Shown in pieces: positions 47,358 to 59,300 of a stretch of 64,000 nt of DNA (positions are counted from its first letter, which is position 1; each line of letters starts with the position of its first letter). The notes beneath the pieces are model-generated. The model made no database searches and was not told the DNA's origin. It saw only the letters and a list, made by a program, of their open reading frames with translations. The stretch is from Pseudophaeobacter sp. EL27 (GTDB lineage: Bacteria; Pseudomonadota; Alphaproteobacteria; Rhodobacterales; Rhodobacteraceae): NCBI RefSeq assembly GCF_900313025.1, contig NZ_OMPQ01000013.1, positions 1 through 64,000 of the forward strand, given 5' to 3'. The position numbers and the translations under genes were made by a program.

Positions 47358-49181
47358 TTATTCCGGAAGCGTAAAGACCTGGCCGGGGTAGATCAGATCC
47401 GGGTCGCGGATGGCGGAATTGTTGGCCTCAAAGACCCGCACGTAGAGATAGCCGCTGCCATATCGCTGTTGCGAGATCGCCCAGAGCGTATCCCCCTCCT
47501 GCACGGTCACGGCCCGCACCAATGGTGCGGCCTCCCCTGTTGCCCCTTCGGAGACGGGGGGCTGCAAGACCTCTGGGGCCTCCCGTTTGAACGGGGTTTC
47601 CAAGCGGCTCAGCACCTTGCCTGCGGTGTCTACCTCATCCAGGCGCAGGGTGTAGACACCAGGGGTCACTGCCTCCAGGCGCCCGCCCCAGCTGCCATTT
47701 TCGGCAGCGGCAAACTGCCCAGCAGGGGCATTGTCGAGATAGACCAGTACGTTAGAGGCCGCGCCAGCACGACCCGCCAATTGCACCTCGCCACTGTCCG
47801 AATAGCTGATGGTGTCCAGAACCACCTTGCCCTGAGGTTTTTGCGCGATGGGCTGCACCAAAGTCACCCCTTCGGCATCTGCACGCAGAACCGCAACCTG
47901 CGCAGGTTGGGGCTGGGGGGCCGGTTTGGTCTCGAGTTCTGTAACCTCCTCAGCCTGGCCCGGCGTGGTCGCCTCCGGTTCTGCCAAATCCGTTGTCGCA
48001 TCTGCCACAAGCGTGGTTTCCGGCGCGGCAAGCACAGCAGCAGGCGCAGTGGTCTCTGGTGCCACCGAGGCGACACCTTCAGGCACATTCGACAGTGGTG
48101 TTTCCGCCACCGCTTCAGACGCTGTGGTCAGCTCTGCGGCGCTCTCTGTTTCAGAAACCTGTGCTCCCGCGATCTCAGCTGCATCGCTGCTTTGCGGTTC
48201 TGCCTCAGCAATCACCTCTTCTGTGGGCATAGAAACGGCGGCATCACTGGTAGTACTGGCGAGCTGCACAGTGTCATCAGAGGATTTCTCTGCGTCAGGA
48301 CTGCCCGCCTCAGTGGTTGCGACCTCTTCTGAAGCTGAGGTTTCAGCTGTGTTCGGAGTTTCCACCTCCGAGGTCGCCTGCGCCAGATCCGTTGCCTCAG
48401 GCTGTGCAGAACTCGCCACGGGGGTTGCAGGCGCGACGATAAAACTACTGTCTGACAAACGAACCTGCCCTTCGGCGCTGGCCCGCAAAGAGATCACCCG
48501 GGCCTGGCGACTGGGGGACAGATCGGTGAAGGCCACAAAATCTCCGCCAGCGGGAACTTCAACCTGCTCGACCACCTCGCCATCCAGCAGCACCTCCACC
48601 AACACCCCTGCTGTTGCACGGCCCGCAATGACTGTTTCGCCTGTTGGTCCAACGCGCACCAAATCAAGCAGGGGCGCATCAAACAAGGGAGCCTCGGACG
48701 CGGTATCCTCTTCCTGCGGCACCGCCAGCGCTGCGACCTGAGCGGCCTCGCTGTCATCGACAGAACCATCGCTCGGGCTCGCTGCAGGCGCCGTCTCGGC
48801 AACGATCTCGCCCGCCTCTGCCTCGACTGCAGGCGTGTCACTGGTAGCGTCTGCCGCGACTTCCGGCTCCGAAGCGCTCGCACTTGGTGTCTCTTGTTGC
48901 GGCTCTACCTGAGTGTCCTCTTGCTGGGCCTGCACAACTGCTTCGGCTTGGCTTTCTACCGGGTCGGGTTCTTGCGAAACGCCTTGGATCACCTTTGGCG
49001 GATTGGCCGATGGGGAAATGGCAATGGTATTTGAAACCTCGTCGCGCGTCGCAGCGTCGCTTTCGTTTCCATCAAAAACGCCGAGCCAAGCCATGGTCGC
49101 CCCGCCAACCACGACAACCGTCGCAACAGCACCCCCCAGAGCCAAACCACTCAGCCCACCTGCTACACCTGTCCCAGCCAT
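47358..49181 (-). CDS. LysM-domain envelope protein with long acidic linker
   Basis: This 607-residue protein has one N-terminal helix (about 5-33) and a very long Ala/Glu/Ser/Thr/Val-rich disordered stretch (about 40-400). Two beta-rich repeats are recognisable: VIAGRATAGVLVEVLLDGEV with a following VPAGGDFVAF, and VQLAGRAGAASNVLVYLDN with GSWGGRLEAV. A C-terminal LysM domain (VTVQEGDTLWAISQQRYG) binds peptidoglycan. I infer an anchored periplasmic protein spanning to the cell wall. The start at 49181 is preferred; an upstream TTG-like start adds 25 residues. Confidence 0.85.
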   Translation of the reverse strand: MAGTGVAGGLSGLALGGAVATVVVVGGATMAWLGVFDGNESDAATRDEVSNTIAISPSANPPKVIQGVSQEPDPVESQAEAVVQAQQEDTQVEPQQETPSASASEPEVAADATSDTPAVEAEAGEIVAETAPAASPSDGSVDDSEAAQVAALAVPQEEDTASEAPLFDAPLLDLVRVGPTGETVIAGRATAGVLVEVLLDGEVVEQVEVPAGGDFVAFTDLSPSRQARVISLRASAEGQVRLSDSSFIVAPATPVASSAQPEATDLAQATSEVETPNTAETSASEEVATTEAGSPDAEKSSDDTVQLASTTSDAAVSMPTEEVIAEAEPQSSDAAEIAGAQVSETESAAELTTASEAVAETPLSNVPEGVASVAPETTAPAAVLAAPETTLVADATTDLAEPEATTPGQAEEVTELETKPAPQPQPAQVAVLRADAEGVTLVQPIAQKPQGKVVLDTISYSDSGEVQLAGRAGAASNVLVYLDNAPAGQFAAAENGSWGGRLEAVTPGVYTLRLDEVDTAGKVLSRLETPFKREAPEVLQPPVSEGATGEAAPLVRAVTVQEGDTLWAISQQRYGSGYLYVRVFEANNSAIRDPDLIYPGQVFTLPE

Positions 49182-49321
49182 CTTTTCCCTTCCTTCAGCG
49201 CCAGACGGGTTTCCCGTTGAAACCCCGCCATGCACCTGGTTGAGGCAGCCTATCAATCACGCTATCAAGGGTCAAAACAGCTTTTGTTCTTCTCCTTGAA
49301 ATCCCAGTGAAAGGCCCTCTC

Positions 49322-49956: not shown

Positions 49957-50967
49957 CTAATTACCGTGAGCTGCGATCAGCGCGTTGACTGTTTGCAAAG
50001 TGTTCTTAGCGGTATCGACCGCCTTCACGGTGACTTCTGCATTCGGTGCCGCCCCTCTCACAAGCACATCGTCCCATACGACCGAACAGCCCGTGTAGTT
50101 CTCATCATCCACCTTTGCGATGGCCTCAAGCTTTCTGCAAGCCCTGTTTACATTTTGCAACAGAGCCACGACCTGCCATTGCTCCAGCTTCCAATCGAGC
50201 CCAGCGGCAATGGCCGCTTTTGAAGTGGAATAGATGTCGTGGATTGGTCTTTGCGCCGTCACCTGCTCAAGACTTTCGTCTGCGGGCCGGTTGATCAGGT
50301 TAACAAAGCTCTTGGTTACAGGGCTGCAAGCCGGGATTACGTTGTTAGAGCATGAGCTCACGACTGACTGTCCAAAGACGATTGTAACGTCTCGGAAGGT
50401 GGCAAGATAATCCATCAAGATTGGTATAAGCCTGCGCGCCCCCAGCACTGCCCGCAGTATCTCAGAAGGATCCAGGGCAATAATACGTTTTACATTTGCC
50501 TTGATCTCAAGATTGTCAAAAGCCTGTTTCAAAGCATCCCCCAGAGAGTTTGCCACTTCAAAAGACAGGGATTCAAAATTCAGAGCCGTATTTGCATTAT
50601 CTTTCACAGTGTTCGCAGTGCAATCTATAGTGACCTCATCAGGTTTGGGGTCGCCAGAAACTGGCTTGGTAGGGAACTTGCACAAGGAAGCCGCCGCTTT
50701 CAATTTGGCGATGTTCCCATACAAAAGCTCTATTGCAGAAGATGATAGCTTTGCCTCGGTGCCGGTACGGGCGGTTTCAGCGACCAGCGGCGCAATCAGT
50801 GCCAGGCTAACCAAGTAGCGATTTACGCGCTGTTCCTGACCCTTGGCAAATAATGTGTTGCGGTCTGCCAGATAGCCCAGATTACCCCCAGGATACCCCA
50901 CCTCGCGTTCGATCAACGAGCAGGACGCCAAAGCAAAAAGCAAAATCAAACCAAAAGTGAAACGCAT
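49957..50967 (-). CDS. Unrecognised lipoprotein
   Basis: This 336-residue predicted lipoprotein has a signal ending LASC, with lipidated Cys16. The mature part is mainly helical, with five further cysteines after residue 90 (for example in LCKFPTK, TIDCTANTV, SSCSNNVIPACSP, NRACRKLE, TGCSVVW). Codon usage is less G+C-rich than its neighbours, which suggests a different history. No domain is recognised. It is monocistronic, with about 90 bases downstream to the LOG gene. Confidence 0.7.
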   Translation of the reverse strand: MRFTFGLILLFALASCSLIEREVGYPGGNLGYLADRNTLFAKGQEQRVNRYLVSLALIAPLVAETARTGTEAKLSSSAIELLYGNIAKLKAAASLCKFPTKPVSGDPKPDEVTIDCTANTVKDNANTALNFESLSFEVANSLGDALKQAFDNLEIKANVKRIIALDPSEILRAVLGARRLIPILMDYLATFRDVTIVFGQSVVSSCSNNVIPACSPVTKSFVNLINRPADESLEQVTAQRPIHDIYSTSKAAIAAGLDWKLEQWQVVALLQNVNRACRKLEAIAKVDDENYTGCSVVWDDVLVRGAAPNAEVTVKAVDTAKNTLQTVNALIAAHGN

Positions 50968-52119: not shown

Positions 52120-52722
52120 TTAGCCCAGACGCGATGCAACGTTTTCCCAGTTCACCAGGTTGTCGAGGAAGTTCGACAGGTAGGCTGGGCGTTTGTTGCG
52201 GAAATCGATGTAGTAGGAGTGCTCCCATACGTCGCAGCCCAACAGCGCGGTCTGGTTAAAGCACAGTGGGTTTACACCGTTTTCGGTCTTGGTCACGGCC
52301 AGCGAGCCGTCAGCGTTTTTCACCAGCCAGGCCCAGCCAGAGCCAAACTGGCCAGCGCCAGCGGCAGAAAACTGCGATTTGAATTCGTCAACCGAGCCAA
52401 AGCTCTCAACCAGTGCTTTTTCCAGATCACCAGGCATGGCGGATGCGCCAGGGCCCATCATTTCCCAGAACTGGTTGTGGTTCCACAGCTGGGAGATGTT
52501 GTTGAAGATACCGTTCTGCGCCACAGAGGAGGCGTCATAGGTGCCTTTGATGATCTCTTCCAGCGACTTGCCGTCCCACTCGGTGCCGGCGATCAGCTTG
52601 TTGCCGTTGTCGACATAGGCTTTGTGGTGCAGGTCGTGGTGGTATTCCAGAGTTTCTGCGGACATGCCCTTGGCTGCCAGCGCGTCATGTGCATAAGGAA
52701 GATCGGGAAGTTCAAAAGCCAT
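52120..52722 (-). CDS. sodB: Superoxide dismutase, Fe type
   Basis: This 200-residue cytosolic enzyme converts superoxide to O2 and H2O2. Metal ligands are in LEYHHDLHHKAYVDN (first His), NHNQFWEMM and DVWEHSYYIDFRNKRPAYL (Asp and His). The iron form is judged from the overall length and the GSGWAWLVKN/AALLGC-type context; Mn or cambialistic use cannot be excluded. It is divergent from the FkbM gene. Confidence 0.95.
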   Translation of the reverse strand: MAFELPDLPYAHDALAAKGMSAETLEYHHDLHHKAYVDNGNKLIAGTEWDGKSLEEIIKGTYDASSVAQNGIFNNISQLWNHNQFWEMMGPGASAMPGDLEKALVESFGSVDEFKSQFSAAGAGQFGSGWAWLVKNADGSLAVTKTENGVNPLCFNQTALLGCDVWEHSYYIDFRNKRPAYLSNFLDNLVNWENVASRLG

Positions 52723-52846
52723 GATGGACCCCTGTCAAATTAGTGTTGCGTTCCTGTGCAGATACATGCGGCGCGGGGGGCAGCAGGTCAAGTACCAAGA
52801 CAATAAAACCGCGCATGTCTTATGTGCAAAAGTGAGGGAATTTGAG

Positions 52847-53623
52847 ATGATCGCAGAGACTTGGATCGCCGCGCGCAAAATGTTTTACCGCGCCCGAGGC
52901 CATTATGCGGGCTCTCTCAACAGCATTCCCTTTCGCCTCGACCCCTATCACTCCAAATTCTGGCGCAAGGCCTCTGCGGGAACCTGGGAGCCCGAGACCT
53001 TTGCGGTGCTGGACGAACATCTGGACGCGGATCACGACTATCTCGACATTGGGGCCTGGATTGGCCCCACCGTGTTATACGGCGCCAGCCTGGCCCGGCG
53101 GGTCTATTGTTTTGAGCCAGATCCGGTTGCTTTTCGCTACCTCGCCTGGAACCTTGAACTCAACGCGGTACAGAATGTCTCTGCCTTTTCAGCGGCGCTG
53201 AGCCAGGGGGTCGGCATCGCCCGCATGGCCTCCTTTGGCGGCGAGGCCGGCGACAGTATGACCAGCCTGCTCAACGATGGGGAGCATGGCTCTGATGTGA
53301 TCACCCTGGGCTGGGAGGATTTTGCCAAATCAGCGGATCTGAGCCGTGTCTCCCTGGTCAAAATGGATATTGAGGGGGCAGAGTTCGACGTGCTTCCCAG
53401 CCTGATCCCCTGGCTGAAAGAACACCGCCCTGCCCTCTATCTCTCCACTCATGCACCGTTCCTAGATCCGCAGATCCGCAAGCAGCGGATGCAAGAACTC
53501 GCCGACAGCCTGTCCTTCTACAGCACCTGCCTAGAGGACAATGGCCAGGCATCGGGGTTTGATACCCTCACACAAGAGCGCGCCTTAACCCGATTCCCGA
53601 CATTCTTGTTCAGTGACAAATAG
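52847..53623 (+). CDS. FkbM-family methyltransferase
   Basis: This 258-residue SAM-dependent O-methyltransferase-like protein has a Rossmann core with YLDIGAWIGPTVLYGA (motif I), VYCFEPDPVAF, and VSLVKMDIEGAEFDVLPSL, the FkbM hallmark. Targets are usually sugars or polyketides; none can be named. The ATG at 52847 has GAGGGA upstream; the earlier in-frame ATG at 52721 overlaps the sodB start and is unlikely. Confidence 0.85.
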   Translation: MIAETWIAARKMFYRARGHYAGSLNSIPFRLDPYHSKFWRKASAGTWEPETFAVLDEHLDADHDYLDIGAWIGPTVLYGASLARRVYCFEPDPVAFRYLAWNLELNAVQNVSAFSAALSQGVGIARMASFGGEAGDSMTSLLNDGEHGSDVITLGWEDFAKSADLSRVSLVKMDIEGAEFDVLPSLIPWLKEHRPALYLSTHAPFLDPQIRKQRMQELADSLSFYSTCLEDNGQASGFDTLTQERALTRFPTFLFSDK

Positions 53624-53648: not shown

Positions 53649-54056
53649 CTATTTGCAAAATAGGGTTCCAGGGCCGTCCCGCGCCCCACCTGAAGGGATT
53701 GCGACCCACATCTGCCCTGCTTTTGTTTCAGGCTTGAAATCTACTCTGTAGCCAATCGACATGATGGTCCCTTCCGTGGTGCGCAGCCCAATCCTCCACT
53801 TGAAGCGCAGGGTCTCGTTATCTCTGCGTTTGAGCTTGACCGTCACAGGCCCCTCTTCCCCAGGCGTCTCCATCCCATGGTCAACCAGAACCGTCCCGTC
53901 TTCCTCGTTAATGGAGAACTTTATACCATAGGGGGTCCAGCCCCCCGTCCGCTTCGCTTCGATACGGCAATCATAGTCAAATTTCGCCTCCTGTGCGGCC
54001 TGAACCACTGAGCCGAATACAGCCAAGACCAGAGCTGCTGAAAGAAGTGCCTTCAC
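53649..54056 (-). CDS. Small secreted two-cysteine protein, tandem paralogue 1
   Basis: This 135-residue protein has a signal peptide (ending VVQA) and only two mature cysteines, Cys30 near the N-terminus (FDYDC) and Cys134 at the end (TLFCK). A central FKWRIG and alternating beta-strand patterns (VTVKLKRRD, YRVDFKP) lie between. The same layout recurs in the next three genes on this strand, so these are diverged paralogues, probably single disulfide-closed beta domains in the periplasm or outside. Function is unknown. It is last in the row and convergent with the FkbM gene. Confidence 0.7.
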   Translation of the reverse strand: MKALLSAALVLAVFGSVVQAAQEAKFDYDCRIEAKRTGGWTPYGIKFSINEEDGTVLVDHGMETPGEEGPVTVKLKRRDNETLRFKWRIGLRTTEGTIMSIGYRVDFKPETKAGQMWVAIPSGGARDGPGTLFCK

Positions 54057-54146
54057 GTGATATCCTTTTGGTGTTCATTCACTTCATGTTTCTCAAATCT
54101 TCGTTTTCATCCCAATCAGTTAGCCCTGAATTTTCAGTTGGTTTAT

Positions 54147-54560
54147 TCACGTGCCCCCAACCTTGGTACAGGTTCCTGCGCCGCGTGGAGACCGTACGCC
54201 GGGAAAACTCTCTGACAGAACCTGGAGCGAGACTTTCAAATTGCCCAGATTCAAAACAGCCCTGTAGCGATCATTGCTCAGTTCTGTGGCTTTTGCGGCC
54301 AGGGCGCGGCTAGGGGTCCAATCCAACAGGTAGGAATGACTGCTGCGCTGTTTCAGAACCACAGGCACTGGCCAGCTGTCCTCAGATATCCGAATCGAGA
54401 CGGTCTCGCGGTTTCCCTTAAATTGCACCGCTACCCGTTCTGGTATCCATCCGGCTTTGGTCACGGGCCTTAGGGTACAGATAAAACTATCTGCCGCAAC
54501 AGCGCTGCTGCCAAACAGGAAGATCGTCGAAAACAACAAACTGTTTACGTAATTCACCAT
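54147..54560 (-). CDS. Small secreted two-cysteine protein, tandem paralogue 2
   Basis: This 137-residue protein has a start at 54560, with GAGGATCTG before the ATG. A signal peptide ends AVAA. Cysteines lie at 28 (SFICTL) and 131 (GAGTC). It aligns clearly with paralogue 3: F-x-C, then GxxPxxVxxQFxxNR, a central LDW, the RAVLNLGNLKVSL strand and G-x-G-x-C. No catalytic residues stand out. Upstream in-frame starts are less likely. Confidence 0.7.
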   Translation of the reverse strand: MVNYVNSLLFSTIFLFGSSAVAADSFICTLRPVTKAGWIPERVAVQFKGNRETVSIRISEDSWPVPVVLKQRSSHSYLLDWTPSRALAAKATELSNDRYRAVLNLGNLKVSLQVLSESFPGVRSPRGAGTCTKVGGT

Positions 54561-54755
54561 CAGATCCTCAAGACACCCATTTTTCGCCAATGTGTTTCGA
54601 TAATATCAAATACTACTAAAGATTGAATTTAACAATAATCAAATTCGTCAGGGGTGAACGTTGCGGCAACTGCCTGATAAGAGGAAAAATTACATCCTTT
54701 CACGATACAGGTGACGCTCGCAATTTCGCTGGAATAGAGGCAAGTGACTCTCCTT

Positions 54756-55169
54756 CTAGGAAACCGGTCGACATTTTCCACTTCCACGCGCGTGATTGGC
54801 ATATCCACCCAGGTAGCCTGTGAACGTTGCTGTCATCTCATTGAGGTTCAGCCGCAGAATACTCTGTGAACTGGCAGTGGTATTGCCATTCACCGGCAGG
54901 TTTTCAATCCCCCAGGAAATTGTGTAGCGAGAAGCCCCGACCTCCTCCAACACAGCGGCAATTGGCTTGCCATAGACCTCGTGAATATGCCCATCATAGG
55001 CCAGAACGGACCCGCGGTTTTTGCCAAACTGGATAAGCACCTTTGGCGGCACCAGGCCAAATCTCGTATGCGCGGCCAATTCACACATGAAGCGTTCCGC
55101 GGCCTGCGTTTGGGTGCCAAGGCAAAGGCCTGCAACCAGGGCAAGGCCCAGGTTTCTGAGCTGTTTCAT
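54756..55169 (-). CDS. Small secreted two-cysteine protein, tandem paralogue 3
   Basis: This 137-residue protein has a signal peptide (MKQLRNLGLALVAGL, ending TQAA) with cysteines at 29 (RFMCEL) and 133 (GSGKC). The central TISW and LRLNLNEMTATFTG correspond to the same positions in paralogue 2. It starts 28 bases after the stop of paralogue 4 and is probably cotranscribed with it. A 195-base gap separates it from paralogue 2. Confidence 0.7.
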   Translation of the reverse strand: MKQLRNLGLALVAGLCLGTQTQAAERFMCELAAHTRFGLVPPKVLIQFGKNRGSVLAYDGHIHEVYGKPIAAVLEEVGASRYTISWGIENLPVNGNTTASSQSILRLNLNEMTATFTGYLGGYANHARGSGKCRPVS

Positions 55170-55197
55170 TCTACACCCCTGCTCTTTCATTTTTCTC

Positions 55198-55656
55198 TCA
55201 AATTTTCCCGCACTTACCAGTCACAAAGGCAGGCGCAGTTCCATGAGGTCGGTCATCACCAACCCTCAGAAAAACCTTATTCAATGTCAGGTCCAACGAA
55301 GCCTGAAATTTGTAAAACCCGGACATTCCGCGCTCCACCGCTCGAAGGCCGGGCATAGTCCAACGAAATTTGACCTTGTTACCCTCCTCAGAGGTCACAA
55401 CTGCGACAATTGGATTTTTGGAAATGGTCCGCGTCAAAGGCCCCTGCACGCGCACGGTGTTTCGTGCTTCGTTCAGAAAAATATCCAAGGTCCAAGGGTG
55501 CTGTTTGAGCGGTGCGACGATCCGCCTTCCCTGAGCCAAATCGGTCATCTCACATCGAATTTGGGTGTCTTTTGCCATGGCAGGCAGCGCGTGAAAACCA
55601 AAACACATCCCCGTCATGGCGACCAGTGGCACTAGTCTACAAAATCGCAAAATCAA
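55198..55656 (-). CDS. Small secreted two-cysteine protein, tandem paralogue 4
   Basis: This 152-residue protein has a signal peptide ending PAMA. Cys35 (QIRCEM) and Cys149 (TGKC) frame a domain with the same central aromatic position (KFRWTMP) and LDLTLNKVFLRV strand. It is the most distant of the four; paralogy is inferred from spacing and pattern rather than close identity. It is first in the row and divides the group from the sox operon. Confidence 0.65.
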   Translation of the reverse strand: MILRFCRLVPLVAMTGMCFGFHALPAMAKDTQIRCEMTDLAQGRRIVAPLKQHPWTLDIFLNEARNTVRVQGPLTRTISKNPIVAVVTSEEGNKVKFRWTMPGLRAVERGMSGFYKFQASLDLTLNKVFLRVGDDRPHGTAPAFVTGKCGKI

Positions 55657-55724: not shown

Positions 55725-55756
55725 GAAAAAATGCCCTCAAAATTGCTTTGAGGGCA
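55725..55756 (-). terminator. Terminator of soxBDAG
   Basis: TGCCCTCAAA and TTTGAGGGCA form a perfect 10-bp stem with a 5-base loop. On the minus strand six T follow. Confidence 0.92.
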
Positions 55757-55804
55757 CCCTAGTTTCACAGTTTTGACAATTCAACCTTAAAAGGAATGCG
55801 CCCC

Positions 55805-56371
55805 TCAGTAAACGTCCACAGAGGATTGTGGATGGGCGGCATTCGACAAGAGATTGAACATATAGGCGCCAACCGAGCGGAAGCAGACCAAGCGGAAGCT
55901 GCCGTCTTCTTCCATCCAGAAAGCCGCTGCCACCTGTGCCGTCCGGCTGCGACGGAAGTCACCTGCAGCAAAGGCTTCGGGTGACAGATCCACCGGAGCG
56001 ATCTTGGCCAGTGTCTCGCGCGCACCTGCGCCCGAGATGCTGAAGTAGGACCGTGCGTCGGACACATTGGCCGCAAGCGCATGTTCACCCGACAGGGCCT
56101 CGGCCAGCGCGGCAGTTTTGGCCACAGCTTCGCCGTAGGGGACCAGCAGCAGCAGCTCATCCGGGGACATCCAGGCCGCAGCGCCGCTCTCAACCACCGA
56201 GACCTTGCCCTGCGCGGGCACCTCGGCGCCGGTGGCCGCCTTGACGGCAGCCCCCAGAACAGATGAGGAAAGATCGCCGCGCAAGGTGATCATCCCCTGC
56301 AGACCAGCGTCCTTGACGGTTGCGATGCCGGTGAACTCGGCGCCATTGGTTGCGGTGACAGGATTAGACAT
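55805..56371 (-). CDS. soxG: Sarcosine oxidase gamma subunit
   Basis: This 188-residue smallest catalytic-complex partner of heterotetrameric sarcosine oxidase resembles a truncated GcvT/folate-binding fold. Signatures are AAWMSPDELLLLVP, VSDARSYFSISG and late FRSVGAYMFNLL. It overlaps soxA by 8 bases (start at 56371), so the two are coupled. It is last in the operon. Confidence 0.93.
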   Translation of the reverse strand: MSNPVTATNGAEFTGIATVKDAGLQGMITLRGDLSSSVLGAAVKAATGAEVPAQGKVSVVESGAAAWMSPDELLLLVPYGEAVAKTAALAEALSGEHALAANVSDARSYFSISGAGARETLAKIAPVDLSPEAFAAGDFRRSRTAQVAAAFWMEEDGSFRLVCFRSVGAYMFNLLSNAAHPQSSVDVY

Positions 56372-59300
56372 TCTGCTTCTCCCCTTCCTTGTCATAGAAG
56401 ACCGGGTCGACGATCTTGGCTTGGTAGATCTTGCCATCGGTTCCGGGGAACTCGATCACCTCGCCCATGCGTTTTGGTCCGTGTTTGACCAGCCCCATGG
56501 CAATGCCACGGCCCAGCGTGGCGGAGTAATAGGTCGAGGTCACCCGGCCGATCACGTTCTGCTGGCCATTGGCATTGATGCCATTGCCACGCGCATAGGC
56601 GCCATCGGGCAGTACTGACCCATCGACGGTTTCCAGACCAACCAGTTTCCAGCGGTCGGGATCGGCCATATGCGAGCGCAGATGGGCGCGTTTGCCAAGG
56701 TAGTCCTCTTTCTTCTTGGACAGGGCCCACTGCAGGTTGAGATCCTGCGGGATCACGGTACCGTCGGTTTCATCACCAATCATGATGAAACCTTTTTCGG
56801 CCCGCAGAATGTGCAGAGTTTCAGTGCCATAGGGCATGACATTGAATTCCTTGCCCGCTTCCATCAGCGCGTCCCAGAAAGCCTGACCTTCGGAGGCCGC
56901 AACTGCGATCTCGTAGGACAGCTCACCCGAGAAGGAGATCCGATAGGCGCGCGCATTGAAGCCGCCGATCTGACCATCACGCCATTCCATGAAGGGCAGC
57001 GCGTCCTTGCTGAGGTCCATGCCGCCACCGGCTTTGTTGTTGAGCTTTTCCAGCACCTTGCGGGCCTTGGGGCCAACAACCGCCACCTGCGCATATTGCT
57101 CGGTCACATTGGCGACATAGACTTTCCAGTCCCACCATTCGGTCTGCAGCCATTCTTCCATGTGACCATGGATGCTTTCGGCACCGCCAGTGGTGGTGTG
57201 GCACAGCCAGGTGTCTTCATCGATGCGGGCAACAACGCCGTCATCAGACAGGAAGCCGTTCTCGGAACACATCAAGCCGTATCGGCATTTGCCAATCTTC
57301 AGGTTCGACATCATGTTGGTATACATCATGTCGAGGAATTTACCTGCATCCGGGCCTTTGACGATCAGCTTACCCAGGGTCGAGGCATCCAGCAGCCCGA
57401 GGTTCTCGCGGGTGTTCTTGACCTCGCGGTTCACCGCGTCATGACGGCTTTCGCCGCTGCGGGTATAGGCAAAGGGACGGCGCCACTGGCCAACCGGCTC
57501 CCAATCCGCGCCATTGGCGTCATTCCAGTCATAGATCGGTGTCTTGCGTACCGGCTGGAAGATCTCACCACGGGCCTCGCCGCCAATCGCCCCCATGGAA
57601 ATGGGGTGGTAGGGTGGACGGAAGGTGGTGGTGCCGACCTGCGGGATTTCCGAGTTCAGACTGTCAGCAAGGATCGCCAGACCGTTGATGTTGCTGAGCT
57701 TGCCCTGATCGGTCGCCATGCCCAGCGTGGTATAGCGCTTGGTATGCTCAACGCTTTCATAGCCTTCGCGGGCCGCCAGCTGCACGTCAGAGACTTTGAC
57801 GTCGTTCTGATAATCGAGCCAGGTCTTCATCCGCAGCTTGATATCTGCCTTGGCAGGCATCAGCCAAACAGGTTCCATCAGGCTCTCGTCTTCGGAAACA
57901 CCTTTTGGGGCCTGTGTGGTTTTGGCAGGGAAGCCAGCAGCCTCGGAGGCCTGCGCACCAGCGGCGGCAGCATCTTCCAGCACCGCAGCCAGCCCCAGGT
58001 TGCCATTGGCCGAGCCACTGGCAATCACAAAGCCTGCGCCATTATCGCCCAGTGGTGGGCGCGCGGGGTCAGGGCGGAAGAAGGCGTTTTCCTTGTCCCA
58101 GTTCAGCTTGCCACCGCAGTGCGACCACAGGTGCACCACCGGGGACCAGCCACCAGACATGGCAACCGCATCGGCTTCGACCTCTTCACGTGCACCACCT
58201 TCGCCATTCTGCGCACAGATCGCCACTTTGGTGACACGCGGGCCATCCTTGACCTTGGCAATGGCGCGGCCGAGCTCAACCCGGATACCTTTTTCGCGCA
58301 CGGCCTCCATCAGAGCACCGCCGCCGGTTTCGCGGGCATCAACGACGCGCACCACTTCGACGCCCGCCTCATGCAGGCACAGCGCTGTGCGATAGGCATC
58401 GTCATTATTGGTGGCAACCACGACCTTTTGGCCAGGGTTCACGCCCCAGTTCACCACATAGTCACGCATCGAGGCCGCCAGCATTACGCCCGGCACATCA
58501 TTGCCAGCAAAGGACAGCGGACGCTCAATGGCTCCGGTAGCGGTGACGATCTGTTTGGCACGGATCCGCCACAACCGGTGGCGCGGACCACCCTGTCCGG
58601 GGACGTGGTCGGTCAGACGCTCATAGCCCAGCACATAGCCGTGGTCATAGACGCCTGAGCTCATGCAGCGATCACGCAGCGTGACGTTTTTCATGCCGCG
58701 CAGCTCTTCCAGGGTCTTTTCAATCCAGACCTCAGGTGCTTCGCCGTCAATTGTGCCGCCATCGACGGGCGCACGACCGCCCCAATGATTGTTCTGCTCC
58801 AGAACCAGCACCTTGGCACCGCTTGCCGCAGCCGCCTTGGCGGATTGCAGACCAGCAACACCGCCACCAACAACAACCACATCGGCAAAGAAGTAGAAGT
58901 GTTCATAGGTGTCGGGGTCTTTCAGCTCTGCCTCAGGGGCGGCGCCCAGACCTGCCGATTTGCGGATGATGGGTTCATAGACGTGCTTCCACAGCGGCCG
59001 TGGGTGGATGAACATCTTGTAGTAGAAACCAGCCGTCAGAAAGCGCGACAGCTTGTTGTTGATCGACAAGACGTCGAATTCCAGGCTGGGCCAGTGGTTC
59101 TGCGAAGCCGCCGACAGCCCCGAAAACAGCTCGGTTGTGGTGGCGCGCTGGTTGGGCTCGTAACGATCCCCGGTGCCCAGCTGCATCAGCGCATTGGGCT
59201 CTTCCGAACCCGCAGCAACAACGCCACGCGGGCGGTGGTATTTGAACGACCGGCCCATCATCACCTGATCATTGGCCAGCAGCGCCGAGGCCAGGCTATC

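Follow-up and report, generated by a model that had tools for sequence, protein, structure and literature searches.

An exported two-cysteine protein family with a predicted eight-stranded barrel fold at the soxG-sodB site of the Roseobacter group

Four consecutive minus-strand genes in a 64,000-nucleotide stretch of DNA from Pseudophaeobacter sp. EL27 (the window, by which we mean the whole stretch analysed) encode exported two-cysteine proteins that, judged by profile searches, belong to one diverged family. The family, which is absent from Pfam and NCBIfam, is now defined together with a confident predicted fold, and in many genera belonging to one bacterial family it maps to a single syntenic site. 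Support is good for the family and its fold but not for the function. The reading we prefer, with a probability of about 0.35, is that the proteins are lipocalin-, YceI- or avidin-like barrels that would hold a small ligand in the periplasm, encoded by a birth-and-death cluster at a fixed site.

The genes of the row and their common family

The row consists of P1 (53649–54056, 135 residues, GTG start), P2 (54147–54560, 137 residues), P3 (54756–55169, 137 residues), and P4 (55198–55656, 152 residues, TTG start). A preliminary description of this DNA had listed four minus-strand open reading frames of these lengths, each with a signal peptide, two cysteines, and a central tryptophan, and all of these features are present. 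Each N-terminus is hydrophobic and closes on an A-x-A-like site, and export is predicted for all four proteins. A single cysteine follows soon after this site, a hydrophobic-x-W motif lies mid-protein, and G-x-G-x-C, or a relaxed version of it, stands near the C-terminus. The first cysteine is several residues past the A-x-A-like site, and the sequence around it contains no lipobox. When P2 is read from its ATG at 54560, no positively charged residue precedes the hydrophobic stretch; an in-frame TTG at 54590 is an alternative start that would supply one. The ratio of nonsynonymous to synonymous change (dN/dS) between orthologue pairs is well under 1, which identifies the four reading frames as coding, and P1–P4 are real genes. 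The gap between P4 and P3 is only ~30 bases, suggesting that these two genes share one transcript.

An iterated profile search seeded by P3 alone gathered P1–P4 and their counterparts in related genomes. Because an iterated search can feed on itself, each subfamily was also removed in turn and a profile was built from the remaining members. These leave-one-subfamily-out profiles recovered P1 at an E-value of 1.9e-14, P2 at 1.3e-10, P3 at 1.7e-24, and P4 at 4.9e-9, and on these scores the four proteins are homologous members of a single diverged family, as had been proposed. The preliminary description had found paralogues 2 and 3 to align clearly, which stands, and had fitted 1 and 4 by pattern only; the latter two are now linked by profile as well. 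In an alignment of 104 members, both cysteines are invariant (104/104 each), and the central tryptophan is kept in 100, with tyrosine in the remaining four. A glycine two residues before the last cysteine is found in 98 of the 104, while a Tyr/Phe 17 residues after the tryptophan, a proline, and an aspartate are also among the next most conserved positions. As a feature of the sequences, the pattern shared by P1–P4 is far beyond chance.

Searches of Pfam returned no match for P1–P4 up to an E-value of 10, and the Pfam, NCBIfam, PHROGs, PADLOC, and PDB sequence searches together gave only isolated, chance-level matches to unrelated families. No profile library places any of the four proteins, in agreement with the earlier statement that they could be assigned to no known family, and the profile-library searches did not scatter them among unrelated known families either. 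No account of the family turned up in literature searches. Identity between members falls to about 20% at a constant address, and a sequence search alone would call them orphans. Two weak P0003 matches (G030 and G085) were dropped as unrelated proteins, by sequence a UbiE-like methyltransferase and an acetyltransferase.

The soxG-sodB site and the history of the row

A 34-row profile matched 95 of 395 genomes sampled from the bacterial family to which the window belongs (the Roseobacter group), while a class-wide sample of 289 genomes gave matches only inside that same family. Some three in four of the genomes sampled from this bacterial family thus carry no detected member, which implies that the role is not essential. 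Within the window's own genus, one to four copies are present in 11 of the 12 genomes, including G010, whose diverged copy was overlooked by a single-protein search. The preliminary description had proposed looking for the same row in other Roseobacter genomes, and it is indeed present in related ones. A plasmid search gave no match.

In the window, the upstream neighbour of the row is soxG, encoding the sarcosine oxidase gamma subunit (55805–56437, minus strand; PF04268, E 3.5e-16) and forming the final gene of soxBDAG. The downstream neighbour is sodB, encoding an Fe/Mn superoxide dismutase (52120–52722, minus strand; PF02777 and PF00081). Among 96 fetched loci, 75 are flanked by soxG and sodB on opposite sides, 13 adjoin just one of these genes, and 8 adjoin neither under the neighbour rule used; at least one of the pair therefore adjoins in 88 of the 96, as it does in the window. 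The exceptional loci that have neither sox nor sod neighbours share no other neighbour. One of them adjoins a bacterioferritin-like open reading frame. A 303-residue relative (L136:5805-6716) also lies off the usual site, beside TadE/TadG-like open reading frames; past its family domain comes a further stretch, also with two cysteines, that may be a diverged second domain. The sodB region was also read in 28 genomes with no detected member, and soxG still stands beside sodB in 13 of them. In nine of these 13 empty sites the two genes are 66–223 bases apart, too short for a family gene.

Two features bear on how the row is transcribed. A terminator-like hairpin (55728–55760, minus strand; 15 pairs followed by a T-rich stretch) lies between soxG and P4 and suggests that transcription of the row is separate from that of the sox genes; such hairpin sites are no more numerous in the region than in shuffled sequence, but of the three present this 15-pair stem is much the longest. 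On the other side, a gene for an FkbM-domain methyltransferase (52721–53623, plus strand; PF05050, E 5.2e-9) separates the row from sodB on the opposite strand, which makes a common transcript with sodB unlikely in the window. Of the 85 loci adjacent to sodB, 19 have an FkbM gene nearby. Farther along the minus strand, 49957–50967 encodes a 336-residue protein with a lipoprotein-like N-terminus and no Pfam match, and matches to it near sodB were found in only part of the related loci.

A maximum-likelihood tree places P1–P4 in separate groups, each with orthologues from sister species, and support is good for the P1, P3, and P4 groups and for a wider P2 group. Orthologues of P1 were found in G008, G002, and G347, and within the genus no subfamily is kept more widely than P2. 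Proteins of other genera also fall in the P1 and P2 groups, which implies that these copies predate the genus, while a very long branch leads to the P4 group, whose placement is unsure. Other lineages have acquired tandem copies of their own. Over the 96 loci, the copy number is one in 67 and two to five in 29. Three copies look broken, and assembly error is possible in each: P4 in G006 is split over two frames, a copy in G049 has an internal TGA, and one in G004 has a frame shift before the last cysteine. The row is a birth-and-death cluster at one address, and the window's copies are mostly old paralogues that have been kept or lost species by species.

Orthologue dN/dS (Nei-Gojobori) is 0.12–0.23 for P1, P2, and P3 and 0.19–0.44 for P4, compared with 0.01–0.04 for sodB, 0.03–0.06 for soxA, and 0.10–0.15 for soxG; all of these values are rough because synonymous distances are large and partly saturated. 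A nearby minus-strand gene for a 632-residue protein with a C-terminal LysM domain (47358–49256) evolves at about the pace of the row, with a dN/dS of about 0.2. The pairwise orthologue comparisons gave no sign of positive selection across whole genes. The row genes are fast-evolving yet constrained, and the "diversifying use" suggested earlier is not supported, given dN/dS values of 0.12–0.44, one fixed housekeeping site, and a single copy at most loci. The P4 orthologues in G003 and G004 have a synonymous divergence (pS) of 0.20–0.40, against 0.56–0.71 for P2 and P3 orthologues over overlapping species sets; the lower P4 value might reflect later transfer or recombination.

Predicted fold and possible functions

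AlphaFold2 was run with the family alignment on P3 (mean pLDDT 95.6, pTM 0.88) and on P4 (mean pLDDT 83.9, pTM 0.78). The proposal of a single family had been set against differing folds among its members, and the P3 and P4 models share one fold, agreeing in the order of their main elements (three strands, a helix, and five strands). Both mature proteins are predicted with good confidence to be small antiparallel barrels of eight strands, the helix lying between strands 3 and 4. The hydrophobic alternation fits a closed barrel whose inward-pointing alignment positions (consensus residues, P3 mature numbering) would include 7 (Tyr), 9 (Cys), 66 (Trp), 83 (Tyr), and 113 (Cys). One cysteine would be in the first strand and the other in the last; since strands 1 and 8 are antiparallel neighbours in a barrel of this kind and counting puts the cysteines opposite each other, a disulfide that closes the barrel is likely. 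The inward Tyr, Trp, and Tyr are faced by Ala and Gly, an arrangement that may leave little cavity. Loops at one end of the barrel are better conserved than at the other by a modest gap (mean information 1.33 versus 0.96 bits). All of the better conserved ones (G-W-I-P linking strands 1 and 2, D...P around the helix, and G-Y-x-N linking strands 7 and 8) would fall at this one end of a meander barrel. A Foldseek search found no PDB match at E ≤ 0.001 for either model. The solved folds that come nearest are closed eight-stranded barrels (avidins, lipocalins, fatty-acid-binding proteins, and phenolic acid decarboxylases), and many of these bind ligands.

Predicted export, the likely disulfide, a fold of the ligand-binder type, and conserved loops at one end together favour a periplasmic binder. 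The Sec-type signal would take the mature protein to the periplasm, which is the simplest reading of its location, and the facing invariant cysteines of the first and last strands would form a disulfide that locks the barrel. The least certain step is that the barrel would then hold a small molecule there in the manner of lipocalins, YceI, or avidins, with the conserved loops possibly forming the mouth of the binding site. The differences among the copies would give them different ligands. In its fullest form, a set of binding barrels specific to one bacterial family, born and lost at a single site, with each copy taking a different small molecule, the proposal is improbable; if true, it would amount to an unrecognised periplasmic binding repertoire beside a superoxide defence gene. 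Protection of the envelope from oxidative damage is possible given the adjoining sodB, and the adjacency may be no more than inheritance. The position is weak evidence for function, as an FkbM gene lies between the row and sodB in the window and soxG and sodB are not obviously related.

Such neighbours could also mean that the proteins act as accessories of superoxide dismutase or sarcosine oxidase, being required alongside them and sharing regulation with sodB or soxBDAG. The family genes lie on the same strand as both, adjacent to sodB in 85 and to soxG in 78 of the 96 loci, separated from sodB by a median of 116 bases where FkbM is absent and from soxG by a median of 109. However, no export signal is seen in SodB, and the Sox subunits are enzymes of the cytoplasm, which makes an exported protein an unlikely physical partner. 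Many genomes hold soxG-sodB with no family gene between them, the hairpin follows soxG in the window, and FkbM is often interposed before sodB; we therefore regard an accessory role as rather improbable. We think it even less probable that the barrels are sensors or adaptors paired with a membrane protein, like the co-component barrels VtrC and ToxS. That superfamily shares with the present family a lipocalin-like fold and fast evolution (PMC9214523), but no VtrA/ToxR-like membrane regulator was noticed adjoining the family genes in a non-systematic look at the loci.

Two further readings were considered. An exported inhibitor or shield would use its small disulfide-closed barrel to block, in the periplasm, an enzyme of foreign origin, with different copies meeting different enzymes. 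MliC-type lysozyme inhibitors are small exported barrels with a cysteine at each end, and the size, export, and one cysteine at each barrel end of the present family recall them, which we take as a lead only; copy number and sequence change fast as well. Against this, no MliC profile match was obtained, the whole-gene comparisons lack positive selection, and no conserved protruding inhibitory loop was identified, making this reading unlikely. The surface or interbacterial role raised in the preliminary description, such as an immunity protein or a surface antigen under diversifying selection, we judge quite unlikely. The tandem copies are diverged, and the C-terminal barrel of NHBA tops the P4 Foldseek matches with TbpB lobes further down, but the TM-scores to NHBA and TbpB are only 0.45–0.50 and the first cysteine lies outside any lipobox. 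The dN/dS range of 0.12–0.44 also speaks against it, and the fixed housekeeping site with vertical inheritance disfavours an interbacterial weapon. Nothing positive emerged for such a role: no effector, toxin, secretion, or defence gene was seen linked in the loci, and PADLOC gave no match. The definition of the family, its site, and its predicted fold allow knock-outs, ligand tests, and structural work to be aimed.

Relation to known barrel proteins

The highest VIA-align score for both models was to 5hal, a putative beta-lactamase of Burkholderia vietnamiensis with 103 residues (Z 10.1 and 9.4, the better over 93 residues at 3.0 Å), at 6–14% identity. The avidin-like barrels rhizavidin, bradavidin, and agroavidin resemble the family in their closed eight-stranded antiparallel barrel and similar length, with VIA-align Z of 8.4–9.0 over 96–97 residues. 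However, Z of 8.4–9.1 across avidins, like the 10.1 for 5hal, is only slightly above the level of unrelated barrels, and for avidins identity is 5–10% and Foldseek E-values exceed 0.1. Unlike avidins, the family carries its cysteine pair on the terminal strands, and no avidin is among the Pfam families listed for its members.

The C-terminal barrels of NHBA, TbpB, and factor H binding protein are likewise eight-stranded and belong to bacterial envelope proteins. The Neisseria surface protein NHBA gave the best Foldseek match to P4 (E 1.9e-3). These three are surface lipoproteins, whereas the family lacks a lipobox. With Slam-dependent surface lipoproteins and hemophilins in view, a genome search for Slam (PF04575) gave no match, but its control search matched nowhere either. 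For MliC (PF09864), Pfam gave no match to P1–P4 up to an E-value of 10, and it does not appear in the 25-family list obtained for the 104 members; its absence from the VIA-align lists proves nothing either way.

Lipocalins and the YceI/BcnA proteins are exported ligand-binding barrels, like the predicted build of the family. Lipocalin Foldseek matches to the family model reach only an E-value of about 0.1, and neither YceI (PF04264) nor lipocalin profiles matched P1–P4 up to an E-value of 10 or appear among those 25 families. In contrast to YceI/BcnA loci, no linked cytochrome b561 gene was noticed. BcnA, a secreted lipocalin of Burkholderia, is induced by superoxide and limits lipid peroxidation (PMC9113575), and this precedent gives a mechanism of oxidative protection by the present family a parallel.
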